DNA of 31,848 nucleotides from a virus. Numbering within the stretch: position 1 is the stretch's first letter; each line of letters begins with the position of its first letter. This document shows positions 6,520 through 28,409 of this stretch, one piece after another. The translations under genes and the position numbers were made by a program. The notes beneath the pieces are model-generated. The model saw only the letters and a program-made list of their open reading frames with translations, searched no databases and was not told the DNA's origin. Location of the stretch: the IMG/VR virus record IMGVR_UViG_3300042465_005350, positions 1 to 31,848 of that record; one strand, written 5' to 3'.

Positions 6520-7191
6520 ATGACAACTTGGATTAGACCCGTAGAAGGCGGAAGCATTTCTGACACTTTTGAGGGACATAAAAACAGAGCAAAGCCAGCC
6601 CTAAACCCAGGAATTGACTATGCGGTTGGTACTGGAACTCCAGTGAAAGCAGTTGCCGATGCAACCGTTACAGGCATTGTAAATACTTTTACTGGCTCTG
6701 GCGGTCGAATGATATTCCTAAGCTTCCCGTCAGGTCACACCGCAGACTACCTACACCTTTCAAAAATTGACGTACAACCAGGACAGGCAGTAAAGCAAGG
6801 TCAAGTACTTGGCCTATCTGGTGGATCGGGCCTTGGCAAAGAGAACGGCTACGGCGCACACCTTCACTTCTCATTCCGAGTTGGCGGTAAGCCAACAATG
6901 GGTGCTGGAAACATTGACTACGAAGCTTTCCGTGGCGCAGCTACAAGTGCTGCACCTGCAAAGCCAAGTGCTGCACCATCCAAAGCTGGAACAAGAGCAT
7001 ACCCCGGAAGAGAACTAAAGCAAGGCGAGCCAGCAGGCCCAGATGTTCTTTACATGCAAAATAAACTTGGCATAAACCCTACAGGCCCTTTTGGACCAAT
7101 GACACACAAGGCTATTGTTGCTCTACAGAAGAAGCACGGTCTAACGGCAGATGGAATTGTTGGACCTCTTACTTGGTCAAAGTTAGGTTAA
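6520..7191 (+). CDS. Endolysin: M23 peptidase + peptidoglycan-binding domain
   Basis: 223 residues. Residues about 1-140 are an M23 (LytM/lysostaphin-type) zinc peptidase fold with 'DTFEGHKNR' (H20), 'NPGIDYAVGTGTPVKA' (D33), 'ADYLHLS' (H79) and 'GAHLHF' (H114, H116). An Ala/Pro/Ser linker (about 141-160) leads to a PG_binding_1 domain (about 165-223, 'DVLYMQNKLG' to 'DGIVGPLTWSKLG'). The enzyme would cleave peptide cross-links in the host wall at lysis. The usual first zinc ligand of the H-x3-D motif is Asn (N29); H20 might substitute. Ribosome-binding site AGGAAAA precedes the ATG. Holin-like genes follow downstream. Confidence 0.85.
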   Translation: MTTWIRPVEGGSISDTFEGHKNRAKPALNPGIDYAVGTGTPVKAVADATVTGIVNTFTGSGGRMIFLSFPSGHTADYLHLSKIDVQPGQAVKQGQVLGLSGGSGLGKENGYGAHLHFSFRVGGKPTMGAGNIDYEAFRGAATSAAPAKPSAAPSKAGTRAYPGRELKQGEPAGPDVLYMQNKLGINPTGPFGPMTHKAIVALQKKHGLTADGIVGPLTWSKLG

Positions 7192-14805: not shown

Positions 14806-15270
14806 TTACGCCCAGGCGGAATCAGTCGGGGTTGCGCCCATTGAAGCTAGAAGGTCTGCTCCCGACTTAGCAGTGCCCTTCTCGAATCCAGAAACATTGT
14901 TATCTGCAGCATACTCGCCTTGCGCTTCACGAATTACTACTCTAGCGACAACTGGCTTACCTAGAAGCTCGTTGATATCTGGAACGTCGAAGTTCCCCTT
15001 TACTGGGTAGCCTAGAGACTCGAAGAAGCTCTGAGTCTTCCAAAAGTCACCAGCCACGTAAAGTGGAATCAAGACAAACAAACGGCGGTTTTCAAATTCA
15101 CCGTCTGCAATTTTTAGCTGGACTTTCCAGCGTGGTTTTCCGGCGTTCTGACCAGACTTCACAGTCTCTGCCTGAACGTCGAAAATGGTTGTTTCGTACT
15201 TACCAGCAGGTACTGGCTCGTAGCTTGTTGAACTGCTTTGTGGCAGGTTCTCAGGAACTGAGATTTGCAT
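14806..15270 (-). CDS. DUF669-like ssDNA-binding recombination partner
   Basis: 154 residues. 'PVPAGKYETTIFDVQAETVKSG' followed by 'KPRWKVQLKIADGEFENRRLFVLIPL' and 'FWKTQSFFESLGYPV' matches the OB-like DUF669 family, usually encoded next to Sak4/AAA recombinases in phages and thought to bind ssDNA. The C terminus ('GADLLASMGATPTDSAWA') is a flexible tail. It directly follows the ATPase gene (1 nt after the stop) and has a GGAGAA ribosome-binding site. The role as an annealing partner is inferred. Confidence 0.7.
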   Translation of the reverse strand: MQISVPENLPQSSSTSYEPVPAGKYETTIFDVQAETVKSGQNAGKPRWKVQLKIADGEFENRRLFVLIPLYVAGDFWKTQSFFESLGYPVKGNFDVPDINELLGKPVVARVVIREAQGEYAADNNVSGFEKGTAKSGADLLASMGATPTDSAWA

Positions 15271-15271
15271 A

Positions 15272-16003
15272 TTACTTTTCTCCTAGTTTCTTGATTGTAT
15301 CGATTATCTTCTTCATGCTTGGCTCATACAACTTAGGCGGTAAGCCGAAGCGGTTTCCTGAGACCAAACGATCTGATGACTGAAGGTAAAGGACTCTCCT
15401 GATACCTTCTTCACCCTTCTCAGCAGTCATATATCCGATGATATCTGGAATTGCTGGAAGAGTATTTTTAGCCGAACCAGGAAGCATAGGAAGAATCTTT
15501 ATAGCTCCAGTCTGTTCGTCTTTCTCATCCTGAGCGTGAGCAATCAGGATGGTCAAGAATGGTGCGGAGTGCAACTTGCGAACAGTCTGTGTAGTCCATT
15601 CTTTCAAGTCACCCCACTTTCCAAAACGGTTGTTCTTGTTCTCTAGCTTTTCACCAAAGAACTTTTCAGCTCTATCCATGGCTACGCCAAGAGTGTCAAG
15701 AATGACTGTCTTGTACTTGTGCTTAGTAGAAACTAAAGATTCCATTACGGTCTCTAGTTGTTCGTGTGTCTCAACGTTGATAACATCAACGTCTCTCCAG
15801 TCACGAGCGATAGCGGAAGCTCCGCCTTCGATATCGATAAGTAATACCGGACCGAGTTCAGCAACTTCACTTGCCGAGGCTGCTAGCCAAGTCTTACCGT
15901 TCTTTGGGTCACCATAAATCAGGATTGACTTAGGTGTATTTAGTTGCTCTGCCTTTTTAACGAACTGCTGAAAAGGTAAAGCTGGAAGCTCTGGATTTAC
16001 CAT
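15272..16003 (-). CDS. Sak4-like RecA-fold ATPase (single-strand annealing/recombination)
   Basis: 243 residues. Walker A 'GDPKNGKT' (31-38) and Walker B 'TVILDTL' (D103) define a RecA-fold ATPase; 'GPVLLIDIEGGASA' and 'FLTILIAHAQDEKDE' are typical of phage AAA_24/Sak4 proteins. Phages use these for homologous recombination or strand annealing, with a DUF669-type ssDNA-binding partner, which is the next gene here. Strong ribosome-binding site AAAGGAG. The leader contains a GTATT-N3-AATAC palindrome also found before the gene at 24022. Confidence 0.8.
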   Translation of the reverse strand: MVNPELPALPFQQFVKKAEQLNTPKSILIYGDPKNGKTWLAASASEVAELGPVLLIDIEGGASAIARDWRDVDVINVETHEQLETVMESLVSTKHKYKTVILDTLGVAMDRAEKFFGEKLENKNNRFGKWGDLKEWTTQTVRKLHSAPFLTILIAHAQDEKDEQTGAIKILPMLPGSAKNTLPAIPDIIGYMTAEKGEEGIRRVLYLQSSDRLVSGNRFGLPPKLYEPSMKKIIDTIKKLGEK

Positions 16004-16047: not shown

Positions 16048-16251
16048 TTACTTAGTGTGGCGGAACACGCTGACAAGTTTCAAAAGCCTCATAAGCCCAA
16101 TTGCAATAATTACAAGCCCTGAGAACATAAATAGATACTTATAAACAACAGTCTCTATTTGGTATTGAGCGTCAATCAGCACAAGACCTATAGCCAACCT
16201 AATTACAAACTGAATAATAAAGGTCGCAACCAAAGCTGCTTTTAGGCTCAT
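16048..16251 (-). CDS. Small two-helix membrane protein (67 aa)
   Basis: 67 residues with two hydrophobic segments, about 5-25 ('AALVATFIIQFVIRLAIGLVL') and 38-57 ('YLFMFSGLVIIAIGLMRLL'), and a basic C terminus ('FRHTK'). The start overlaps the nuclease stop by 4 nt (ATGA), so it is translated from the replication transcript. No family is recognised. Small membrane proteins in such operons often act on the host envelope or exclude other phages, but nothing specific is visible here. Confidence 0.65.
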   Translation of the reverse strand: MSLKAALVATFIIQFVIRLAIGLVLIDAQYQIETVVYKYLFMFSGLVIIAIGLMRLLKLVSVFRHTK

Positions 16252-16961
16252 GCTGGGTCCGTCACTTTACACTTGAAGCACTCAGCTTGACGTTCAAACT
16301 GCTCTGGGCTTGGGTCTGCCTGAAGTCCTTTCCAGATTGTTTCTAGTCGGTCCCAGGTTCCCTGAGCGTATTCTTTTGAGTATTCAAAAGTGTAAGCCCA
16401 AACATCATGATCGGTGGTTCCATCTCGGTTAATGAATACCATAGAGCAACCATCAATCTCAACACCTGAGTTATTTAAACCCCAAGCATAAATCTGAAGC
16501 TGGGTGTAATACTTCTGAATTGTGTAGACCATAGAAGCGTCTGGCTTTTCTTCAAACAAAACCTTTTGCATCTTTTTGCTCTTGTCTCGTGTGCTAGTTT
16601 TCCAGTCAACCAAGTGATTGCCTTGAATCATTGCTAGGTCAGGTTTGCTACTAATCGTGCCGTAGCCATCAAGCTCACCAAGATAGATTTTCTTTTCAAC
16701 CTCAGCACCAGAAAGTTCTGGGATTAGCTCTAGGTCAGCTTTATCAATCGCATCTTCAATAAGAGAGTGCATAGCTGTTCCGATTTTTGCGCCAAGCCAA
16801 TATTTAGCCGGACCTTCTTTTTCACCAAGTAGCTTTTTAGCTAGATGATATGAGCAAGGGTCTGAGAAATCAGACGCACCAATTTTCTTTTGTGCGTCAC
16901 GCTCAGACTGTTGCTTTAGTAGTGATAGTGCAATATCCTGCACTCTTGTATTTGTAATCAT
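16248..16961 (-). CDS. Cas4/RecB-like PD-(D/E)XK nuclease
   Basis: 237 residues. 'GTAMHSLIEDA' contains the family's His (H65), 'ISSKPDLAMI' the first Asp (D108), 'HLVDWKTST' the D119-x-K121 motif, and 'YTIQKYYTQLQIYAWGL' the QxxxY-type helix. Cysteines at C36 and in 'ECFKCK' near the C terminus fit an Fe-S cluster as in Cas4, although only three are obvious. It probably degrades or resects DNA ends during recombination together with the neighbouring ATPase. Strong AAAGGAGAA ribosome-binding site. Confidence 0.8.
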   Translation of the reverse strand: MITNTRVQDIALSLLKQQSERDAQKKIGASDFSDPCSYHLAKKLLGEKEGPAKYWLGAKIGTAMHSLIEDAIDKADLELIPELSGAEVEKKIYLGELDGYGTISSKPDLAMIQGNHLVDWKTSTRDKSKKMQKVLFEEKPDASMVYTIQKYYTQLQIYAWGLNNSGVEIDGCSMVFINRDGTTDHDVWAYTFEYSKEYAQGTWDRLETIWKGLQADPSPEQFERQAECFKCKVTDPA

Positions 16962-20446: not shown

Positions 20447-20953
20447 TTAGTTCTGTAGTGAATTGATTTGTTCGATTACAAAGCCTCCATAGCCAGCTCT
20501 GTAGACCTGTAGCAACACATAAGGGTCTCCATCAAGATAGTTCAGTTCCTCATCTTGCGTGGTGAACCTAGCTGAACCAGTCAAAGAGTTCTCTCCAAAG
20601 TTAGAGATAGAGATTGAATAAACATTCTCTTCGCTTGTGCGCTCAACTATAATGTTTCCCTTGTTGGTGGTGTCTATTGATCCGGGACGAATTACATTTT
20701 CGGTTTCCGCCAGAATCTCTTGGACTGTCCTATAGTTGCTCGTGCCAATAGCTTTACCTAATTGGGTTTTTGGCACACCTGAATCTGAAGCTAGGCGCAA
20801 AGCCATATCCCTATCCTGTTTGATTGAGGATAGGCGATTGTTGGCTTCACGCTTTAGCTCTGACTCGATTGTGCCTTTAGCAATCGTGTAAGCAAGGTGC
20901 TTCTCGTGTAGGGCTTCAAGTGCTGACTTAGCCTGTGGTGATAGCTTTGTCAT
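20447..20953 (-). CDS. HTH-containing phage protein (168 aa)
   Basis: 168 residues. The first ~60 are a charged helix pair ('ALEALHEKHLAYTIAKGTIE'), followed by a helix-turn-helix-like segment 'VPKTQLGKAIGTSNYRTVQEIL' (about 60-81). The second half is beta-rich ('NVYSISISNFGENSLTGSARF', 'YVLLQVYRAGYGGFVIEQI'). DNA binding is plausible. The start overlaps the upstream stop (TAATG). No specific family can be named. Confidence 0.55.
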   Translation of the reverse strand: MTKLSPQAKSALEALHEKHLAYTIAKGTIESELKREANNRLSSIKQDRDMALRLASDSGVPKTQLGKAIGTSNYRTVQEILAETENVIRPGSIDTTNKGNIIVERTSEENVYSISISNFGENSLTGSARFTTQDEELNYLDGDPYVLLQVYRAGYGGFVIEQINSLQN

Positions 20954-21216
20954 TAGTAGCCCACCTTCGCATCCACATTAGGGAATTCCTGGCGGAACGA
21001 GTCAAGAACCTCATTATCCAAGGGCTCGCCTAGGACACTAATGTCCACACCAAACCAGCGCGGGTTATCTCCTAGTCCATACATCTCCGCGCCTAGATAC
21101 TCGAGCTGTTGCTCCTTCATAAAGCTAGATTGCCTAGTGTTGATTGCTGTGATTACATCAGAGACATTGTTGTCCTGACCTTCGATTGTGATTATTGTGT
21201 TGTATTTAGTTTTCAT
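20953..21216 (-). CDS. Hypothetical small protein after SSB (87 aa)
   Basis: The start is taken at the ATG at 21216, which overlaps the SSB stop (ATGA) and has AAAGGAAAG upstream; a further in-frame ATG six codons earlier lies inside the SSB gene. 87 residues, alpha/beta: 'YNTIITIEGQDNNVSDVITAIN' suggests a ferredoxin-like beta-alpha unit, then 'YGLGDNPRWFGVDISVLGEPL'. No named family. Coupled to SSB. Confidence 0.6.
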   Translation of the reverse strand: MKTKYNTIITIEGQDNNVSDVITAINTRQSSFMKEQQLEYLGAEMYGLGDNPRWFGVDISVLGEPLDNEVLDSFRQEFPNVDAKVGY

Positions 21217-21590
21217 TTCTTTCCTTTTTCGCATTTATTACAGTCGCAACTGTGATTTTTCACCAGAACAGTTCTGGTAAATTTTGTAGTGCCGTAGTTT
21301 AGATCGTGACCAACAAGACTTGCTACTAGCTCGACACTCGTGCCAGTTCGCTCTCCGTTATCCCAGTCCCTAATGTTTAGCTCACCGGAAACAATAACTC
21401 GCTGTCCCTTTTCAATAGAGTCCCTGAGATTAGTGGCTAGCTGATTGAAAGCCGTAATGGTATACCAGTTGATATTTCCATTAGCGGTTTCCTCAGAAGC
21501 AAGCCTAAAGCTTAGGCAGGGTAAATCATCCACACTTAGTAAGTAGCGTGGTGTGGTCGCTATTAGACCAGTAACTGTCGTATTAGACAT
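21213..21590 (-). CDS. ssb: Single-stranded DNA-binding protein (OB fold)
   Basis: 125 residues. 'VTGLIATTPRYLL', 'LSFRLASEE', 'NWYTITAFNQLATNL' and 'KGQRVIVSGELNIRDWDNGERTGTSVELVASLVGHDL' are the OB-fold blocks of bacterial and phage SSB. It would protect ssDNA at the phage fork. The acidic C-terminal tip typical of bacterial SSB is absent; instead it ends with a Cys-rich basic tail ('CDCNKCEKGKK'), so it may bind metal or other partners. AAAGGAGAA ribosome-binding site. It lies upstream of the helicase in the transcript. Confidence 0.8.
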   Translation of the reverse strand: MSNTTVTGLIATTPRYLLSVDDLPCLSFRLASEETANGNINWYTITAFNQLATNLRDSIEKGQRVIVSGELNIRDWDNGERTGTSVELVASLVGHDLNYGTTKFTRTVLVKNHSCDCNKCEKGKK

Positions 21591-21972
21591 TTGTGTTCTC
21601 CTTTATTTTTGCTGCGGGTTCTGATACTGCCATAGCGTGTGCCTTTTTACAAGCGTAATTCATTGAAAAATATCTTTCTTCAAATGGTTTATCTTTACCT
21701 ATTTCCCATACCGCAAAAAATGGCGATTTGATTTGAACGAGCAATCCGTCAGCAAGTAGCTCATAAAGCTCCCTGTCGCTGGTGATTCCGCCCTTCTCGG
21801 TAAGTATTTCGGTGTTTGTGTATAGGTTTCCAAAATGAGTTTCTCTTCTATCTAGGATAGAGAGCTTGCCCATTGTGAATACTGTATACCAGCCATAATT
21901 GTGAGCGAAGGTTGGGTTATTAGTCTTCGACACATAAAATGCTGGGTTGTCTCTGGTTGCGTTATCTGCCAT
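21583..21972 (-). CDS. Hypothetical protein (129 aa)
   Basis: 129 residues, alpha/beta, no recognised domain. Notable aromatic segments 'NPTFAHNYGWYTVFTMGKLS' and 'IKSPFFAVWEIGKDKPFEERYFSMNY'. The start overlaps the upstream stop (TAATG) and the end overlaps the SSB start by 8 nt, so it is part of the same translated run. Confidence 0.55.
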   Translation of the reverse strand: MADNATRDNPAFYVSKTNNPTFAHNYGWYTVFTMGKLSILDRRETHFGNLYTNTEILTEKGGITSDRELYELLADGLLVQIKSPFFAVWEIGKDKPFEERYFSMNYACKKAHAMAVSEPAAKIKENTNV

Positions 21973-22205
21973 TAGACAAGCTCCTCTCCGTCATCATTCA
22001 ATACAACAGCTTCTCGCCTAATGTCCTTATCATTGGATTCTCTAATCCAATCGACAAAGTTAGCCATTACATACTCTAAGAATTCATCCTCGTCATACTC
22101 TTTGTCGTTTTCTTGGATAATCTCTAAGTATTGACCCAGAGTTTGCTTGGTGTCCCAAGTTATATTTAGTTGTGTGATTGTGTATTTTGTTAGCTTTGAT
22201 ACCAT
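21972..22205 (-). CDS. Hypothetical acidic protein (77 aa)
   Basis: 77 residues: beta strand start ('KYTITQLNITWD'), then a strongly acidic helix ('IIQENDKEYDEDEFLEYV') and 'VVLNDDGEELV' end. Acidic small phage proteins of this kind can mimic DNA or bind host enzymes, but no family is recognised and this is only speculation. Confidence 0.55.
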   Translation of the reverse strand: MVSKLTKYTITQLNITWDTKQTLGQYLEIIQENDKEYDEDEFLEYVMANFVDWIRESNDKDIRREAVVLNDDGEELV

Positions 22206-22208
22206 TTC

Positions 22209-22742
22209 CTATTCTCCTTTTCCTAATGGGAAGATATCAAACATATTGATATCGCTTTTATCCCAATCTACATATCCATCTTCATCAAAAACGCCACCAG
22301 CCTTTACCAACATTTCGTCAGTAATGTCCTGGCAGTTGTCCAAGAAGTTTCCGTCTTCATAAGAAGACTCACCAATAAAGCCCATACCTTCTTCGTAATA
22401 TCTGTGGCTAATCTTTAGCGTTGGATATTTCTCGCTAAAGGCAGTCCAGAAGTCACAGTTCGGACTCCAAGCGGTGTCAAAGCCTAGGCTAATCTTTCCA
22501 GCTTCAAAGACAACCTGAGTTTCGTCACCCAAGTCCCACTTAGTTCCCCAGTTAGAAACACGCCAGTCATACCAGTTTGGCTCATTTGACGGAGCTTTGG
22601 TGTCTACTAGCTCATCTGGCATTGGCACAAAATCATTCATCTGAAAGATTCCGTTGCTTTTGGTTCTTACAATCTTTTCTATCTGCTTGATAGTTAGTTG
22701 GTCTCCAATAATTTCTACTTCATTAGTTGTCCAATTTGGCAT
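22209..22742 (-). CDS. Api92/YubB-like ferredoxin-fold protein (DUF1281-type)
   Basis: Start set at 'MPNWTTNEVEIIG', the usual family start, preceded by AAAGGAGAAAGCATA; a longer frame upstream overlaps the neighbouring gene. 177 residues with 'FQMNDFVPMPDEL', 'YDWRVSNWGTKWD' and 'ISLGFDTAWSPNCDF', the hallmark 'PMP', 'NWGTKW' and 'TAWSP' blocks of the YubB/Api92-like family found on plasmids and phages. Function is unknown. It is the last gene of a tiny-gene cassette joined by repeated junctions. Confidence 0.75.
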   Translation of the reverse strand: MPNWTTNEVEIIGDQLTIKQIEKIVRTKSNGIFQMNDFVPMPDELVDTKAPSNEPNWYDWRVSNWGTKWDLGDETQVVFEAGKISLGFDTAWSPNCDFWTAFSEKYPTLKISHRYYEEGMGFIGESSYEDGNFLDNCQDITDEMLVKAGGVFDEDGYVDWDKSDINMFDIFPLGKGE

Positions 22743-22948
22743 TATGCTTTCTCCTTTTCTGTATTGAGCCTGTCCCAAAGTAGTTCCATAGCCCTCTCGT
22801 TATCCTTGTGTTCCTCGTAATTGGTTTTCCAATCCTCGATCTCGGTGTCCCAAACAGACCCGTAGAAGAACTTGTGGTCGGTGGTGTCTTGGTCAATCCA
22901 TAGCTTGCCGTCTTCAACGACAACTACGAAATGGTGTTGTAGTGACAT
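22742..22948 (-). CDS. Small conserved phage protein (68 aa), tiny-gene cassette
   Basis: 68 residues starting 'MSLQHHFVVVVEDGKLWIDQD', ending 'NTEKEKA'. The start is preceded by AAGGAGAACGCATA, whose codons are the C terminus of the upstream gene; the stop overlaps the next ATG (TAATG). The N-terminal 'HFVVVVEDGK' beta hairpin recurs in small phage proteins of unknown function. No catalytic motif. Confidence 0.6.
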   Translation of the reverse strand: MSLQHHFVVVVEDGKLWIDQDTTDHKFFYGSVWDTEIEDWKTNYEEHKDNERAMELLWDRLNTEKEKA

Positions 22949-23106
22949 TATGCGTTCTCCTTTTCTGGTGACTGTAGCTTGGCTACCCACCAATCGCTAT
23001 TGAAGCCGATTGACTCATCAGCCCACTTCTGGGCATTGTCGAATGAATCAAACATTCCGTAGTGCGTGAAGCCATCAAACGGACTCCCGCTTAGGACTAT
23101 ATACAT
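22948..23106 (-). CDS. Small conserved phage protein (52 aa), tiny-gene cassette
   Basis: 52 residues: 'MYIVLSGSPFDGFTHYGMF' and 'AQKWADESIGFNSDWWVAKL', ending 'SPEKENA'. The pattern 'SGSPFDGF-YG-F-----A--WA------DWWVA-L' resembles short phage proteins seen in many actinophages and plasmids, function unknown. Start and stop both lie in repeated TAATG junctions with the ribosome-binding site inside the upstream gene's last codons. Confidence 0.65.
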   Translation of the reverse strand: MYIVLSGSPFDGFTHYGMFDSFDNAQKWADESIGFNSDWWVAKLQSPEKENA

Positions 23107-23276
23107 TATGCGTTCTCCTCTTGCTTGATAGTCCAATCGACATCATCCCAGACGACATCAGACTTGGTTGCCAAGTTCCATTCGTCTAGCGTTTTGTTTA
23201 TCTTCTGATGGACTTGCTCACTGTTCTGAGCCTCAGTCCAAAACCTAAGCGTGATTTCTCCTGTGTATCCTGCCAT
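23106..23276 (-). CDS. Small hypothetical protein (56 aa), tiny-gene cassette
   Basis: 56 residues ('MAGYTGEITLRFWTEAQNSE' start, 'VVWDDVDWTIKQEENA' end) between two of the repeated junctions. Beta-alpha-beta like, acidic C-terminal part with paired Trp. The ribosome-binding site AAAGGAGAA lies in the previous gene's C-terminal codons. No named family. Confidence 0.65.
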   Translation of the reverse strand: MAGYTGEITLRFWTEAQNSEQVHQKINKTLDEWNLATKSDVVWDDVDWTIKQEENA

Positions 23277-23488
23277 TATGCGTTCTCCTTTTGAATCTGC
23301 TTGTAGTTATGAATAGAAAGCAACACAATTACCGCTGCGAAAGCTAGCAATCCTGCGTTTCCTATTCTGGTGGCAATTTGTGGTGTCTGATACAGGTCGT
23401 TAGTCCAGAACAAAATCTGGTTTACGATAGCATCAACGCCTGCCAGGAATAGGCAGACACTTGCGAATCTTTGGATGTTTCTAGTCAT
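23276..23488 (-). CDS. Two-helix membrane protein (70 aa), tiny-gene cassette
   Basis: Start set at 'MTRNIQRFASVCLF' with AAAGGGAAACC upstream; a longer frame overlaps the next gene out of frame and is rejected. 70 residues with hydrophobic segments about 7-25 ('RFASVCLFLAGVDAIVNQIL') and 41-59 ('NAGLLAFAAVIVLLSIHNY'), ending 'QIQKENA'. First gene of the repeated-junction cassette. Function unknown, host-membrane location likely. Confidence 0.6.
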   Translation of the reverse strand: MTRNIQRFASVCLFLAGVDAIVNQILFWTNDLYQTPQIATRIGNAGLLAFAAVIVLLSIHNYKQIQKENA

Positions 23489-23843
23489 TGGTTTCCCTTT
23501 CTTCTGTTGAGCATACGCAACTAAGTCGGCATTTGTCGGTTTCTCCTTTTTGCTTGTCGCAATCTTTACACCAATCGCCACGAAGGTCTTCGACAATCAG
23601 TCCGCACTCTGGGCAGTCTGACAAAAGCTCGTCGGTATACTCCTCTACGGCAATCTGTAAATCCCTGTAAATGCGGTCATAGTAATCAAGCATTGAAGCC
23701 CTGTAAACAATCGGGTCAAGTAGCTTTATTGCGGTACTTGGGTTGTAGTAGTGGTCGCAGGCGTTCACCATTGGATAGACATCATCAAGCATTGAGCAAT
23801 ACATCTCTTCTGCTTGGTGCTGTGGGATAATTTCGTAATTCAT
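23481..23843 (-). CDS. Zinc-ribbon-containing hypothetical protein (120 aa)
   Basis: 120 residues. A helical first part ('IIPQHQAEEMYCSMLDDVYPM', 'IYRDLQIAVEEYTDELLSD') leads to a zinc ribbon-like pair 'DCPECGLIVEDLRGDWCKDCDK', then two more cysteines ('KCRLSCVC'). Metal binding is likely; function unknown. Its ATG overlaps the upstream stop (ATGA) and its end overlaps the next gene by 8 nt. Confidence 0.6.
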   Translation of the reverse strand: MNYEIIPQHQAEEMYCSMLDDVYPMVNACDHYYNPSTAIKLLDPIVYRASMLDYYDRIYRDLQIAVEEYTDELLSDCPECGLIVEDLRGDWCKDCDKQKGETDKCRLSCVCSTEERETND

Positions 23844-24022
23844 TCTGAGAACCTACTTCCTGCGTTGTCAATCTCTGCGTCTTGCTTGAATAGCGATTTA
23901 GCTTCCTCTGGGGTGTAGCCGTAGTAGGTCTTCCAATAAAGGAATTCCTCTCCGTAGTAATTGACCATCATCGCCGATAGCTTCAAAGCTCCGTCGTAGT
24001 TTCTTGAAATTGTGATACTCAT
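23840..24022 (-). CDS. Small hypothetical protein (60 aa)
   Basis: Start chosen at 'MSITISRNYDG' with AAAGGAGAGTGTT directly upstream; an in-frame ATG ten codons earlier lies in the promoter/leader region. 60 residues, helical second half 'YTPEEAKSLFKQDAEIDNAG'. Its 'EEFLYWKTYYGYTPEEAKSLF' part resembles short phage proteins of unknown role. First gene after a candidate promoter (24051-24079). Confidence 0.6.
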   Translation of the reverse strand: MSITISRNYDGALKLSAMMVNYYGEEFLYWKTYYGYTPEEAKSLFKQDAEIDNAGSRFSE

Positions 24023-24044
24023 AACACTCTCCTTTTGTTGTGTT

Positions 24045-24057
24045 GTATTCAAAATAC
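24045..24057. promoter_or_regulatory. Palindrome GTATT-N3-AATAC upstream of the gene at 24022
   Basis: Perfect 5-bp arms overlapping the candidate -10 box; on the - strand followed by AACACAACA and an AAAGGAG ribosome-binding site. The same arrangement is found at 16023-16035. Confidence 0.4.
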
Positions 24058-24079
24058 TATTTCTTGTCTAACTTGTCAA
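24051..24079 (-). promoter_or_regulatory. Candidate sigma-70-type promoter, leftward
   Basis: -35 TTGACA (24079-24074) and -10 TATTTT (24056-24051) are separated by 17 nt. The -35 lies in the last codons of the upstream gene. Transcription would start just upstream of the gene at 24022 and run into the tiny-gene cassette. Confidence 0.5.
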
Positions 24080-24314
24080 GCCACTTTAGAAAGTCCTTGG
24101 TGATTGTTGAGACAGTCAGAGCTTGGGTTTCCCCTGTAAATAAGCCCTCTTGATCGTTCCAACCGACATTCCCATTGACATCACCCAAGATGAATTCACC
24201 TTTGGTTGTGTCAATTACGAACATTCCTGGATACTCGTAGCTTGCCCTAATCACCTTCGGATGTCTCGTTAGCGAGATAATCATCAGGTTTTTGTTTCTG
24301 TGAATCGTGTCCAT
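24057..24314 (-). CDS. Hypothetical protein (85 aa)
   Basis: 85 residues, beta-rich ('VIRASYEYPGMFVIDTTKGEFILGD'-type strands) with a helical C terminus ('TITKDFLKWLDKLDKK'). No recognised family. AAGGAGAAAAA ribosome-binding site before the ATG. The 3' end carries the -35 element of the promoter described at 24051. Confidence 0.55.
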   Translation of the reverse strand: MDTIHRNKNLMIISLTRHPKVIRASYEYPGMFVIDTTKGEFILGDVNGNVGWNDQEGLFTGETQALTVSTITKDFLKWLDKLDKK

Positions 24315-24323
24315 TTTTTCTCC

Positions 24324-24794
24324 TTACCAGCTTGACTGATAGTAAAAGTCATACTCGTTGAATTGTGGTGAGCGAAGGTATTTCTCAATTCGGTTCTCCG
24401 TCTTCTGGAGTCCCTCAAAATACCATTCGTCATACTGCGTTGTGCCAAAGAAGAATCCTTCTGAGGTTGGCAGTAGGTCGTGAGCGAGTTCCTTCTTCTC
24501 AAGAACTTGCTTACAGGTGTCGGCTAGCTCCTTTAGAGCTTCTCGTGATACATAGTATTCGGCGCAGTTGTCTTCGCCGTTTTGAGCATTCTTGACGAAC
24601 CAGTTGTGAATTGCGTTCTCCTTGCGCCAGTAGATAACAGGAATGCTGATTGTCATAGATAGCATTTCGGGGTCTAACTGGTCTGGGGTCAGTTCTAGGG
24701 TCTCTAAAACTTCGTCAAACACTTCTGGATTCTTTTGGTAATACTCATTGTTTGCTACATAGGTTTTTGCTTTTAGATACATATCTAGTCCCAT
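24324..24794 (-). CDS. Conserved phage protein ('MGLDMYL' family, 156 aa)
   Basis: 156 residues with 'MGLDMYLKAKTYV', 'YWRKENAIHNWFVKNAQNGEDNC', 'EGFFFGTTQYDEWYFEGLQKT' and a 'YYQSSW' C terminus. These blocks define a family very widespread in phages and prophages, whose function is unknown. The conserved 'WRK-N-IH-WF' and 'FFFG--YD--Y' segments suggest a ligand-binding site. Strong ribosome-binding site AAAGGAGAAAC. Confidence 0.75.
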   Translation of the reverse strand: MGLDMYLKAKTYVANNEYYQKNPEVFDEVLETLELTPDQLDPEMLSMTISIPVIYWRKENAIHNWFVKNAQNGEDNCAEYYVSREALKELADTCKQVLEKKELAHDLLPTSEGFFFGTTQYDEWYFEGLQKTENRIEKYLRSPQFNEYDFYYQSSW

Positions 24795-24817
24795 TTTGTT
24801 TCTCCTTTTGTTTGTGT

Positions 24818-25003
24818 TTAGTATCGGGTGATTTGGGTAATCATTGACTTATTGAAATCTTTGGCAGTCAATACTTCGTAGATTGCGACATCAATTTCAT
24901 TGGCGTGGACTGAGAATTCTTTGTGAGTTCCCTCATCATAGATTCTGATAATCCAAAGGTTTTTGCCATTGGTGTCTTCGGTTGGAATTAGTTCTCGTTC
25001 CAT
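24818..25003 (-). CDS. Small hypothetical protein (61 aa)
   Basis: 61 residues: 'MERELIPTEDTNGKNLWIIRIYDEGTHKEF' and 'DVAIYEVLTAKDFNKSMITQ'. A single alpha/beta unit, no named family. Ribosome-binding site AAAGGAGAACC. It is the first gene downstream of the candidate promoter at 25048-25076. Confidence 0.55.
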   Translation of the reverse strand: MERELIPTEDTNGKNLWIIRIYDEGTHKEFSVHANEIDVAIYEVLTAKDFNKSMITQITRY

Positions 25004-25047
25004 TTTGGTTCTCCTTTTGTTGAATGTTATTTTGTTTCTAGGTTTAT

Positions 25048-25076
25048 TGTATAGAAAAATGTTGCTTTTGTGTGAA
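25048..25076 (-). promoter_or_regulatory. Candidate sigma-70-type promoter for the small-gene run, leftward
   Basis: -35 TTCACA (25076-25071) and -10 TATACA (25053-25048), spacer 17 nt. Start expected near 25041, giving a leader of about 38 nt with an AAAGGAG site before the ATG at 25003. It lies in the 252-base gap that separates the amidotransferase from the small genes. Confidence 0.45.
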
Positions 25077-25120
25077 ATTGTTGTGTTTTTGTTGGTGCGT
25101 GTCGTGGGTTTTTTGGGTTG

Positions 25121-25163
25121 AAATCATCAAATATGCCCTGTTTCTGAACATATTTGATTATTT
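25121..25163. repeat. 15-bp inverted repeat in the gap after the amidotransferase gene
   Basis: AAATCATCAAATATG (25121-25135) and CATATTTGATTATTT (25149-25163) are inverted with 14 of 15 positions matching, spacer 13 nt. CATATTTGATTA also occurs at 16039-16050 near the Sak4-like gene. It may be an operator or processing site; there is no U-tract typical of a terminator. Confidence 0.7.
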
Positions 25164-25190
25164 CGGGGGTGGTTTTCACTACATACTATT

Positions 25191-25222
25191 TATATATATT
25201 ATTTATTATTATAATATATATA
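25191..25222. repeat. AT-only 12-bp inverted repeat
   Basis: Arms 25191-25202 and 25211-25222 are perfectly complementary and consist only of A and T, with an 8-nt loop. It lies 34 bases past the amidotransferase stop (read leftward). Possible easily melted or cruciform-forming element, or a weak terminator. Confidence 0.7.
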
Positions 25223-25255
25223 GAAATAATGTAGAGTGAGAGCCAAAAACGAAAA

Positions 25256-26332
25256 TTACATTTTCGCTGAGTGGATGTTCCACCAAGATTTGGTGAAATC
25301 GTCGAGCTGGGAATTCGATAGATAACCCAACTCTGCGAAGTCATCTACCGAACCCATAAAGCTTCCATACTCGTCGAAGTATTCTCCATACTCATTACAG
25401 TAGTAATCGGCTACTCTTGGATACCCGTAATATCCTGGGTCATTGAGAGTTCCGAAACTAGGGTCTGACTCGCTGTCGTAATACCCTGTTAGGTCTTCGC
25501 CGTAGTAATCGGCAGGTTGCCCAACATTTGGCATTTGGTCATACCAGTCATCTAGGTAATCTACTGGCTTGGAGTGACCGCCAGCAGTCATAGAACGGAA
25601 GCCTGCGTAGTTGTAGCTAAACTTCTGAACATACTTCGGGTCGATCTCGGGCAAGGTCTCTACATTGACTAGCGAGCCATTCTCGATAGTAAGCAGGGTC
25701 TTTTCTGAGATTACTTCTGTATAGATTGGATAGATACCGATTGACTCTAGGGCGATTAGCAACATAGCTTCTGTTGAAGCGAATACGAAACTGCCGTCCT
25801 TGAGGATAGCGATACATAGCGGTGAGTGAGTGATACGAGCAACCTTGAGAGTTAGTCGGTCATTGTCATCTAGCCACGCAATAGAAGCGTCTCCGTCTAG
25901 CTTGTCGAAGCTGTCGGTGTTACGCTCGAATGTTTGTAGCAACGCTGGGATAACGCTGGAATCTACTTCTGGCAAGGTGAACGGAATCTCGCCGCGAACC
26001 ATATCGTGATTGTAGATAACGCCATTGTGAACCAGAGCAACTGACTTGTCGGGAGACAATACAGGGTGGTTGTTGGCATTGTTGCTTGTAGAGCCGTGGG
26101 TAGCGTAGCGAGTGTGTAGGACTGCTACACGAGTGCCACGAGACATTGGCTTCATTGAGAGTTGTGCGCCTGAAGCGTCACGCTTGAAGATACCCGACGC
26201 AGTGCTTGACTGCCACGCATAACCTGAAGCCTGATTGCCTCTAACATCCATCTCTCGCAATAGAGCCTTAGCTAACTTGCGGGGTTGAATTCTTGAATTT
26301 TCTGATAATGAATAACCTGCGATTGAACACAT
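25256..26332 (-). CDS. Class-II glutamine amidotransferase (Ntn-type) with Tyr/Asp-rich tail
   Basis: 358 residues. The start is set at 'MCSIAGY' because these enzymes need Cys at position 2 as catalytic nucleophile; an in-frame GTG three codons earlier overlaps the ribosome-binding site. Residues matching the family: C2, 'HTRYATHG' (R75), 'NNHPV' (88-91), 'VHNGVIYN' (N103) and 'EVDSS' (D124). It would release ammonia from glutamine for a partner synthetase; no synthetase domain is fused. Residues about 260-330 are rich in Tyr, Asp and Gly ('DYYGEDLTGYYDSESD'), an unusual tail. A plausible partner is the amidoligase at 27543, across the hub. Confidence 0.8.
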   Translation of the reverse strand: MCSIAGYSLSENSRIQPRKLAKALLREMDVRGNQASGYAWQSSTASGIFKRDASGAQLSMKPMSRGTRVAVLHTRYATHGSTSNNANNHPVLSPDKSVALVHNGVIYNHDMVRGEIPFTLPEVDSSVIPALLQTFERNTDSFDKLDGDASIAWLDDNDRLTLKVARITHSPLCIAILKDGSFVFASTEAMLLIALESIGIYPIYTEVISEKTLLTIENGSLVNVETLPEIDPKYVQKFSYNYAGFRSMTAGGHSKPVDYLDDWYDQMPNVGQPADYYGEDLTGYYDSESDPSFGTLNDPGYYGYPRVADYYCNEYGEYFDEYGSFMGSVDDFAELGYLSNSQLDDFTKSWWNIHSAKM

Positions 26333-26381
26333 AATTATCACCTTTACTTTCTTTTTGTCTATGTTTACTTGTTATATATAT

Positions 26382-26923: not shown

Positions 26924-26940
26924 AGGGCCTTAGAGCCGAA

Positions 26941-27129
26941 TTTGGGAACTCGCGCTGGTGTTGCCCACCCACAAAAAAAGCGCGGAACAGTTTGGGATTT
27001 GGGAAATCGCGAGCGCTCTTGGGCACTAGAACCGATTTGGGAATTCGAGCGCTGGCAGGCACGATTTGGGAATTCGCGAGAGCGCAGGCACAAAAAAGTC
27101 CATTTGGGAATTCGCGCTGGCGCTGGCAC
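26941..27129 (+). repeat. Iteron-like array, five copies of TTTGGGAANTCGCG
   Basis: Copies start at 26941, 26998, 27036, 27065 and 27103 (start-to-start distances 57, 38, 29, 38). The core is TTTGGGAA-[C/A/T]-TCGCG or TCGAG, most followed by GCGC-[T/A]-GG and some by GGCAC and an A-run (ACAAAAAA). Such arrays serve as initiator-binding iterons in replication origins. That role is inferred; the spacers are too short and variable for CRISPR. Confidence 0.75.
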
Positions 27130-27363: not shown

Positions 27364-27542
27364 GCCCCTACAAGCCACGACCCCCGCCAATGGCTAAACA
27401 CCCCAGACACCCCCCGAAAACCCCCCTAGAAGGCTATAAAAAAAAGTCTAAAAAACACCCTAAAATGTCCAACACGCTACCCAAAAAGCACTAGAATTAG
27501 AGAGTGGCAACACCGCCACACAAAGAAGGAGAGCAAAAAAAA

Positions 27543-28409
27543 ATGAGCACACTAACACCAGAGCAACAGACCATAATCCTTAGCCAATGGGCAGAGTTTC
27601 GCGCCAGCTTTGGAGATGAAGCACCCCCAAGGGATACCCCGCGAAGTTGGGGCTTTGAGATAGAAACACCAAGCGCGGATGAACTACACGAAGCCTTGAC
27701 ACGCGGAGACCGCGCGTTATTGAACTTCACCCAAGATTCAAGTATTGAAGGCGGGGGAAGTGAAGATTGTAGTTGCGAATGTCGCTATTGCTTGTATCAC
27801 GAGTGCGACTGTGATTCTTGCGAAGTTGAAGGGAGTGATGACCCAGACCACGGGTGCGGGAGTGATGAGTGCTACCAAGAAGGAAGCGAATACCAAGAGA
27901 TAACCACGCTTGACGGGGGAGTGAAAACCACACACCCCCAGGAATTAGCCGTCTTGGTTGCCGCGGGACTTGAGAGCGCAAAAATCACAAGTCAATGCGG
28001 ACTTCACTTGAACATAGGAAGCGCAGACCTAAACCCCGCGCAGATCGCGAGAGTGATAAGCGCCTACCGCATAAGCTACGACCTTCTAACCGTAATCGCG
28101 GGCAGAGAGTCCGAACGCTATGCGCCGAAGCCAGTCCCAGAATACGAGACAATGGCACACCGAAGCGAAGCAACTGGAAAATTCACCGCCGTCAATACAC
28201 AACACCACTACCACAATCTAGGAAGCTACGGAGACCGCAACCGCGCCCGCCTAGAGTTTAGGCAACACGAAGGCACGAACAACCCCGCCGAGATTCGCGC
28301 GTGGGCTTGGCTAATGGTTGAGCTAGTCCAATTCGCAAAATCAACCCGCCCGCTTTATTGGATAGCGCAAGCCAAAACGCTGGACCAATTCCGCAAAGCG
28401 TTGCGCTAG
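27543..28409 (+). CDS. Amidoligase-family protein (COOH-NH2 ligase) with Cys cluster
   Basis: 288 residues from the ATG with AAGGAGAGC upstream; an in-frame GTG 13 codons earlier lacks a ribosome-binding site. 'RSWGFEIETP' (34-43), 'SSIEGGG' (66-72), 'GLHLNIG' and 'RLEFRQHEGTNNPAEIRAWAWLMVEL' are the signature blocks of the ATP-dependent amidoligase family (glutamine-synthetase-like fold). Residues 76-110 add nine cysteines ('CSCECRYC', 'CDCDSC'), a probable metal site. The family forms amide bonds on peptides or cell-wall components; the substrate is unknown. The gene has more CGCG and CGC codons than its neighbours and ends at its own terminator. Confidence 0.8.
   Translation: MSTLTPEQQTIILSQWAEFRASFGDEAPPRDTPRSWGFEIETPSADELHEALTRGDRALLNFTQDSSIEGGGSEDCSCECRYCLYHECDCDSCEVEGSDDPDHGCGSDECYQEGSEYQEITTLDGGVKTTHPQELAVLVAAGLESAKITSQCGLHLNIGSADLNPAQIARVISAYRISYDLLTVIAGRESERYAPKPVPEYETMAHRSEATGKFTAVNTQHHYHNLGSYGDRNRARLEFRQHEGTNNPAEIRAWAWLMVELVQFAKSTRPLYWIAQAKTLDQFRKALR

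Follow-up and report, generated by a model that had tools for sequence, protein, structure and literature searches.

The virus record IMGVR_UViG_3300042465_005350 (31,848 bases; "the window" below means this whole stretch of DNA) carries a run of tiny genes joined by a repeated 17-nucleotide junction, which we call J (AAGGAGAACGCATAATG), and our data support a cassette pattern of tiny genes with J as the seam between them. That J is also a recombination seam driving the exchange of these genes is plausible, and we hold the matter to be about evenly balanced. The genes, here called mem, g56, g52 and g68 and followed by a YubB-like gene (yubB), are arranged as mem-J-g56-J-g52-J-g68-J-yubB. Genes were called by our own simple script, not by a standard gene finder; the products are 70, 56, 52 and 68 and then 177 amino acids (aa) long, exactly as the original prediction had listed them, and the small proteins have no visible relation to each other, as it had also stated. 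It had further claimed that four junctions share the 17-mer; they were found at the predicted sites, all on the minus strand, and more precisely two copies are exact and two match at 16 of 17 positions:

23274..23290, minus strand: junction J1 (mem to g56), exact
23104..23120, minus strand: junction J2 (g56 to g52), 16/17, with G as the first base
22946..22962, minus strand: junction J3 (g52 to g68), exact
22740..22756, minus strand: junction J4 (g68 to the YubB-like gene), 16/17, with AAAGCA in place of AACGCA

Each copy is read in the frame AAG GAG AAC GCA TAA/TG, allowing for the one-base variants, and every J contains TAATG, in which the next ATG overlaps the upstream stop by one base behind a ribosome-binding site. 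From J come the C-terminal tails of the upstream proteins, which are KENA (mem), EENA (g56), KENA (g52) and KEKA (g68). For four unrelated small proteins, J is therefore a shared tail (-ENA or -EKA), the stop, the next ribosome-binding site and the ATG in one, and this frame check of all four copies bears out the earlier description of the junction. In the whole window, 4 matches to J with no more than 3 mismatches were found, compared with a mean of 0.11 and a maximum of 1 in dinucleotide-shuffled sequence. The window has five AGGAG-N6-TAATG sites, with AACGCA at three and AAAGCA at one of them, and in 1.62 Mb of loci not selected by J the AACGCA hexamer was present at 2/55 such sites, in two related phages. 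The shuffle and hexamer controls together rule out a chance origin of the J repeats. The four junctions folded no better than shuffled sequences (z -0.10 to 0.99), and no RNA hairpin was detected at J.

Relatives were gathered by scans independent of J (helicase, membrane protein and other genes) and by J itself; they are cited by our locus labels (L numbers). The array is carried by three lineages, namely the window, L079 and L205, and L284 and L117 have the L205 order and are the same strain (99.8-99.9% identity). The window genes compared are:

24324..24794, minus strand: 156-aa gene, the conserved left flank of the variable region, also found ahead of mem in L079, L205 and L204 (70-79% aa identity)
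23276..23488, minus strand: mem, encoding a 70-aa hydrophobic protein, the anchor gene, whose 3' end holds the first J; L079, L205 and L204 have orthologues
23106..23276, minus strand: g56, a 56-aa cassette gene; its homologues in L277 and L230 lack the ENA tail
22948..23106, minus strand: g52, a 52-aa cassette gene; 85% aa identity in L079, where it also lies between two J
22742..22948, minus strand: g68, a 68-aa cassette gene; 54% aa identity in L205, where it lies between J and a shortened J
22209..22742, minus strand: the gene after the last J, encoding a 177-aa Api92/YubB-like protein (Pfam DUF1281_C)

The name YubB for the 177-aa protein is an assumed label taken from the original prediction, and the profile matched is DUF1281_C, "Api92-like". 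None of mem, g56, g52 and g68 had a PHROG match at 1e-3 or a Pfam match above the cut-off.

In L205 and L079, mem and J are kept and the tiny genes behind J differ. The order in L079 is mem-J-g52-J, then a 108-aa gene, a gene labelled g77, a 63-aa gene and yubB; here the 63-aa gene was placed by DNA comparison and alignment, its true start having been missed by the gene caller. In L205, the order is mem-J, a 45-aa gene, J, g68, the shortened J (AAAGGAAACGCATAATG), the 63-aa gene, g77, a 109-aa gene and yubB, and hence, the YubB-like gene is preceded by other genes in both relatives. Both flanks are J or near-J for g52 (window and L079) and for g68 (window and L205), and every neighbour is changed; an exchanged module with the same short sequence on either side is thus present in two or more phages. 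Moreover, the edge of a block shared by L205 and L079 (92.6%) falls on the ATG of J, and g77 and the 63-aa gene are in opposite order in these two phages, the blocks ending on TAATG or on the ribosome-binding site beside it. In L204, mem is followed by AAGGAGAGCAACTAATG and different genes; the mem orthologues end in KENA in three phages and in KESN in L204. AAGGAGAGCAACTAATG (tail KESN) is itself a second repeated seam, found twice in L252 (76-560) and once after mem in L204 (2805).

L277 and L278 form a more distant group, in which these small genes are ordered differently, their junctions are ordinary and the KENA tail is missing. Homologues of g52 and, without J, of g68 were found in L277 and L278, and the -ENA tail is missing from the homologues of g52, g56, g68 and the 45-aa protein in L277, L278 and L230. 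Relatives of g52 with ~40% identity were also observed in Caulobacter giant phages and a Rhizobium phage, which makes it a small widespread family; its core in the window's relatives is VLxGSPFDGFTHYG. When L233 was compared with L235, a 53-aa gene ending in KENA, together with J, was found inserted before a shared 103-aa gene, and just before this insertion lies a gene with the tail KETA and a junction resembling J. A second phage group shows the same J behind several upstream families and in front of several downstream genes; for example, L008 and L073 are 98.7% identical for 239 nucleotides from J onward, and their upstream genes are unrelated. All loci of this group were fetched by exact J, and J identity there is thus selected, with the neighbour swap as the only evidence. 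A 140-nucleotide piece from a gene start (L008 4618-4757, L073 6685-6824) is 95% identical between these two phages and lies ~2.5 kb apart relative to J; it appears to be a single tiny gene that has moved. The original prediction had proposed looking for related genomes with the same junction and other genes or orders between, and for gene-order breakpoints in the junction. L079 and L205 provide the former, and the L205/L079 block and the J-selected L008/L073 pair provide the latter; the same genes in the same order with ordinarily diverged junctions, named there as the refuting pattern, are not what the relatives show.

Repeated junctions were then counted across phages by comparing the 17-nucleotide start regions (-14 to +3) of called genes, with a match defined as 16/17 or better and paralogous pairs excluded; overlapping contigs were removed beforehand, which left 51 of 60 family loci and 75 background loci. 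In the 51 family phages, 11/1285 adjacent pairs matched versus 3/19,244 non-adjacent pairs, and gene-order shuffling within phages reached 11 in 0/1000 trials. Barely any adjacency effect was seen in the 75 unrelated loci (5/1348 adjacent versus 31/13,549 non-adjacent), and a weaker excess of adjacent pairs appeared in the background at 15/17 (16 observed versus a mean of 7.8, 1/1000). The decay with distance is immediate, with 11/1347 adjacent pairs matching at 16/17 or better versus 0/12187 pairs at least eight genes apart. Four matching adjacent pairs come from the window, namely three J pairs and one unrelated pair at 6846/7055 of the reversed window. After removal of the window, L205 and L079, 5/1240 adjacent matches stayed, a number reached by 0/1000 permutations. 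Starts with a one-base overlap alone gave 6/68 adjacent matches (0/1000 permutations). Repeated junctions with other sequences occur in L252 (KESN), L232 (KEN), L275 (GENK), L274 (EED), and L246 and L250 (GEQK).

Related family phages differ in gene content in 46 cases, corresponding to 37 distinct inserted places. The right edges of these differences lie within -17 to +3 of a start in 68% of cases versus 4% at random, and the left edges lie within -17 to +15 of a start in 59% versus 7%. Edges thus cluster at starts and, as given below, the flanks of clean insertions are no more alike than random pairs; the family therefore shuffles tiny genes at start junctions, whether these match or not.

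We propose that this part of a gene-dense tailed-phage operon is built as a series of single-gene cassettes, where J would play a double role as a translational-coupling element (frame end, ribosome-binding site and overlapping TAATG start) and as a seam for cassette exchange. Recombination within J would swap tiny genes while the stop, ribosome-binding site and start always stay correct; the cost would be the same short tail on every resident protein. Exchange may proceed by annealing at J or by microhomology, with help from the Sak4-like annealing protein, exonuclease and single-strand DNA-binding protein (SSB) that the phage itself encodes, and J would be kept alike through its coupling function plus exchange. 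Direct support for this model is given by J flanking exchanged genes, their changed neighbours, breakpoints at J, tails that are absent outside the clade, and the locality of the repeats. The candidate recombination genes and the SSB gene in the window are:

15272..16003, minus strand: Sak4-like single-strand annealing protein, the candidate recombinase (phrog_124 3e-46, AAA_24 4.5e-30)
14806..15270, minus strand: DUF669 protein, adjoining Sak4 and resembling phage single-strand-binding families
16248..16961, minus strand: Cas4/RecB-type exonuclease (phrog_1674 exonuclease, 1.5e-27)
21213..21590, minus strand: SSB (Pfam SSB 3e-13, phrog_44)

Several observations weigh against J as the driver of exchange. 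Among 15 clean insertions, flanking junctions were no more alike than random pairs (9.9 vs 9.4 of 22, Fisher p 0.54), L233 and L274 alone standing out; not all 15 are independent, in that L267/L268 and L239/L241 repeat events and L228, L229 and L231 overlap. Direct-repeat flanks as a general rule for insertions are unsupported at this p value. For one-base-overlap starts, removal of the window, L205 and L079 left 1/58 adjacent matches, which is not significant (93/1000). At its right edge, the L205/L079 exchange does not end in a J. With 17 exact base pairs (bp), J is shorter than the pairing minima given in PMC3945230, which are 31-34 bp for RecA and 23-27 bp for Red beta. The exact 17-mer is common as a single copy in many unrelated phages, with at least 122 occurrences in at least 119 loci, and J as a sequence unique to the window's clade is hence ruled out. 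Finally, silent sites are near saturation between the window and L079, and synonymous identity in g52 (19/31) does not differ from that of its neighbours (385/702, p 0.58); a recent transfer of g52 between these phages is unsupported, since its silent divergence is no lower than theirs. The J copies of these phages nonetheless match at 16-17 of 17 despite the near-saturated silent sites, and J has therefore been kept or re-made over a long divergence. The original idea of J as a homology handle thus holds insofar as relatives carry other genes between J copies; causation by homology does not follow from these data.

A rival explanation is that J is simply a translation-coupling optimum, where selection on coupling keeps or recreates the 17-mer with no role in exchange, tiny genes being exchanged by illegitimate recombination at boundaries with only clean joins surviving. 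In its favour, family breakpoints fall at starts whether or not the junctions match, something evidently maintains J between the window and L079, and in at least 115 of the at least 122 occurrences the exact 17-mer terminates an open frame with a minimum of 35 codons, in at least 49 upstream-protein clusters, nearly all in other phages. However, AACGCA is uncommon at AGGAG-N6-TAATG sites, selection of this kind would be expected to act operon-wide, yet the repeats are confined to neighbouring genes, and the junction that is repeated differs from relative to relative (KESN, KEN, GENK, EED); we consider a pure coupling optimum possible but somewhat doubtful. A broader version of the exchange idea is that family phages keep phage-specific "splice handles" (KENA, KESN, KEN, GENK, GEQK, EED), short seams within coding sequence selected for the plug-in of any tail-matched tiny gene by annealing recombination, the stop, ribosome-binding site and following start being right from the outset; this we regard as rather unlikely, and if it were true, phages with a common handle would form an exchange community for small accessory genes. 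Alternatively, an insertion or a short conversion tract may have duplicated a neighbouring junction beside the new gene, in which case the repeats would record past events and not re-used seams. Adjacent repeats in eight family phages, mostly with another sequence, fit such local copying, but g52 and g68 are each flanked by J or near-J in two phages with all neighbours different, and local copying would therefore have to occur repeatedly and independently, which seems improbable. Equal junctions and similar gene sizes might also reflect tandem duplication of one ancestral gene and its junction, followed by divergence. This origin was rejected as exceedingly improbable because separate homologues exist elsewhere for each small protein (for g52 in the Caulobacter and Rhizobium phages; for g56, g68 and the 45-aa protein in L277, L278 and L230), and paralogous pairs were in any case left out of the junction statistics.

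Among the genes surrounding the array are the 156-aa gene and a glutamine amidotransferase gene upstream and those for the Api92-like protein, SSB and a helicase downstream. The best match of the helicase among cultured phages was a Stenotrophomonas phage (42% identity), followed by Pseudanabaena and Clavibacter phages, and many of the 665 records of the helicase search belong to Gordonia, Arthrobacter and Microbacterium phages. From these cultured relatives, our guess is an actinobacterial host. Megablast of window 20500-25500 found no close relatives among named phages, mem had no tblastn match in named phages, and for the 156-aa gene GTDB genomes gave only distant matches (27-48% identity and, over one stretch of 22 residues, 64%). 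Elsewhere in the window, five ATTTGGGAATTCGCG-like 24-mers with 29-57 bp spacing lie at 26940-27125, in a gap without an assigned gene between divergent blocks, possibly an origin or control region. A GATase_6 glutamine amidotransferase-like gene (25256-26341, minus strand) and an Amidoligase_2-like gene (27504-28409, plus strand) flank this gap divergently and are perhaps a peptide or cell-wall modification pair.

Known phage elements share some of these properties. A limited literature search, covering parts of the published record, found no description of a seam that is repeated, combines stop, ribosome-binding site and start, and gives the proteins a shared tail. The boundary at J can be read directly, in a fixed frame, in an array and with close relatives whose contents are swapped, and the boundary-sequence question is therefore testable by reporter and recombination assays. 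The data also suggest that tiny phage proteins can owe some of their C-terminal sequence to assembly, as a scar, rather than to function. Start-Associated Sequences (SAS and ESAS) are reported from Cluster K mycobacteriophages and Cluster EF Microbacterium phages, and homologous recombination was suggested in these accounts as a possible side role (PMC3203893, PMC7302621). SAS, of ~13 bp, is conserved at ribosome-binding sites of numerous genes from different families, and J likewise is found at the starts of unrelated genes; however, SAS copies lie in intergenic gaps throughout the genome, and the portions of those reports available to us mention no shared protein tail, whereas the J copies are confined to a single 551-nucleotide array and overlap coding ends. 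ESAS consists of inverted repeats in the same accounts, and the PeSL (promoter-stem-loop) cassettes of T4-type phages, as presented in PMC4503421, are repeated elements between small genes that are linked to shuffling and form an intergenic promoter-terminator motif. J, in contrast, is a 17-nucleotide stop/ribosome-binding-site/start overlap local to adjacent genes, and judged by folding against shuffles, neither an adjacent inverted repeat nor a stem-loop terminator was found at the four junctions. Closest in kind are the conserved boundary sequences proposed in the modular theory of phage evolution (cited in PMC3029335), where a short identical sequence at the edge of an exchanged module is the proposed site of homologous recombination; J differs in lying inside a coding overlap, in bounding modules of a single tiny gene each, and in being repeated several times per array. 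J appears to work like such conserved boundary sequences, and it resembles SAS and PeSL while lacking some defining features of both.
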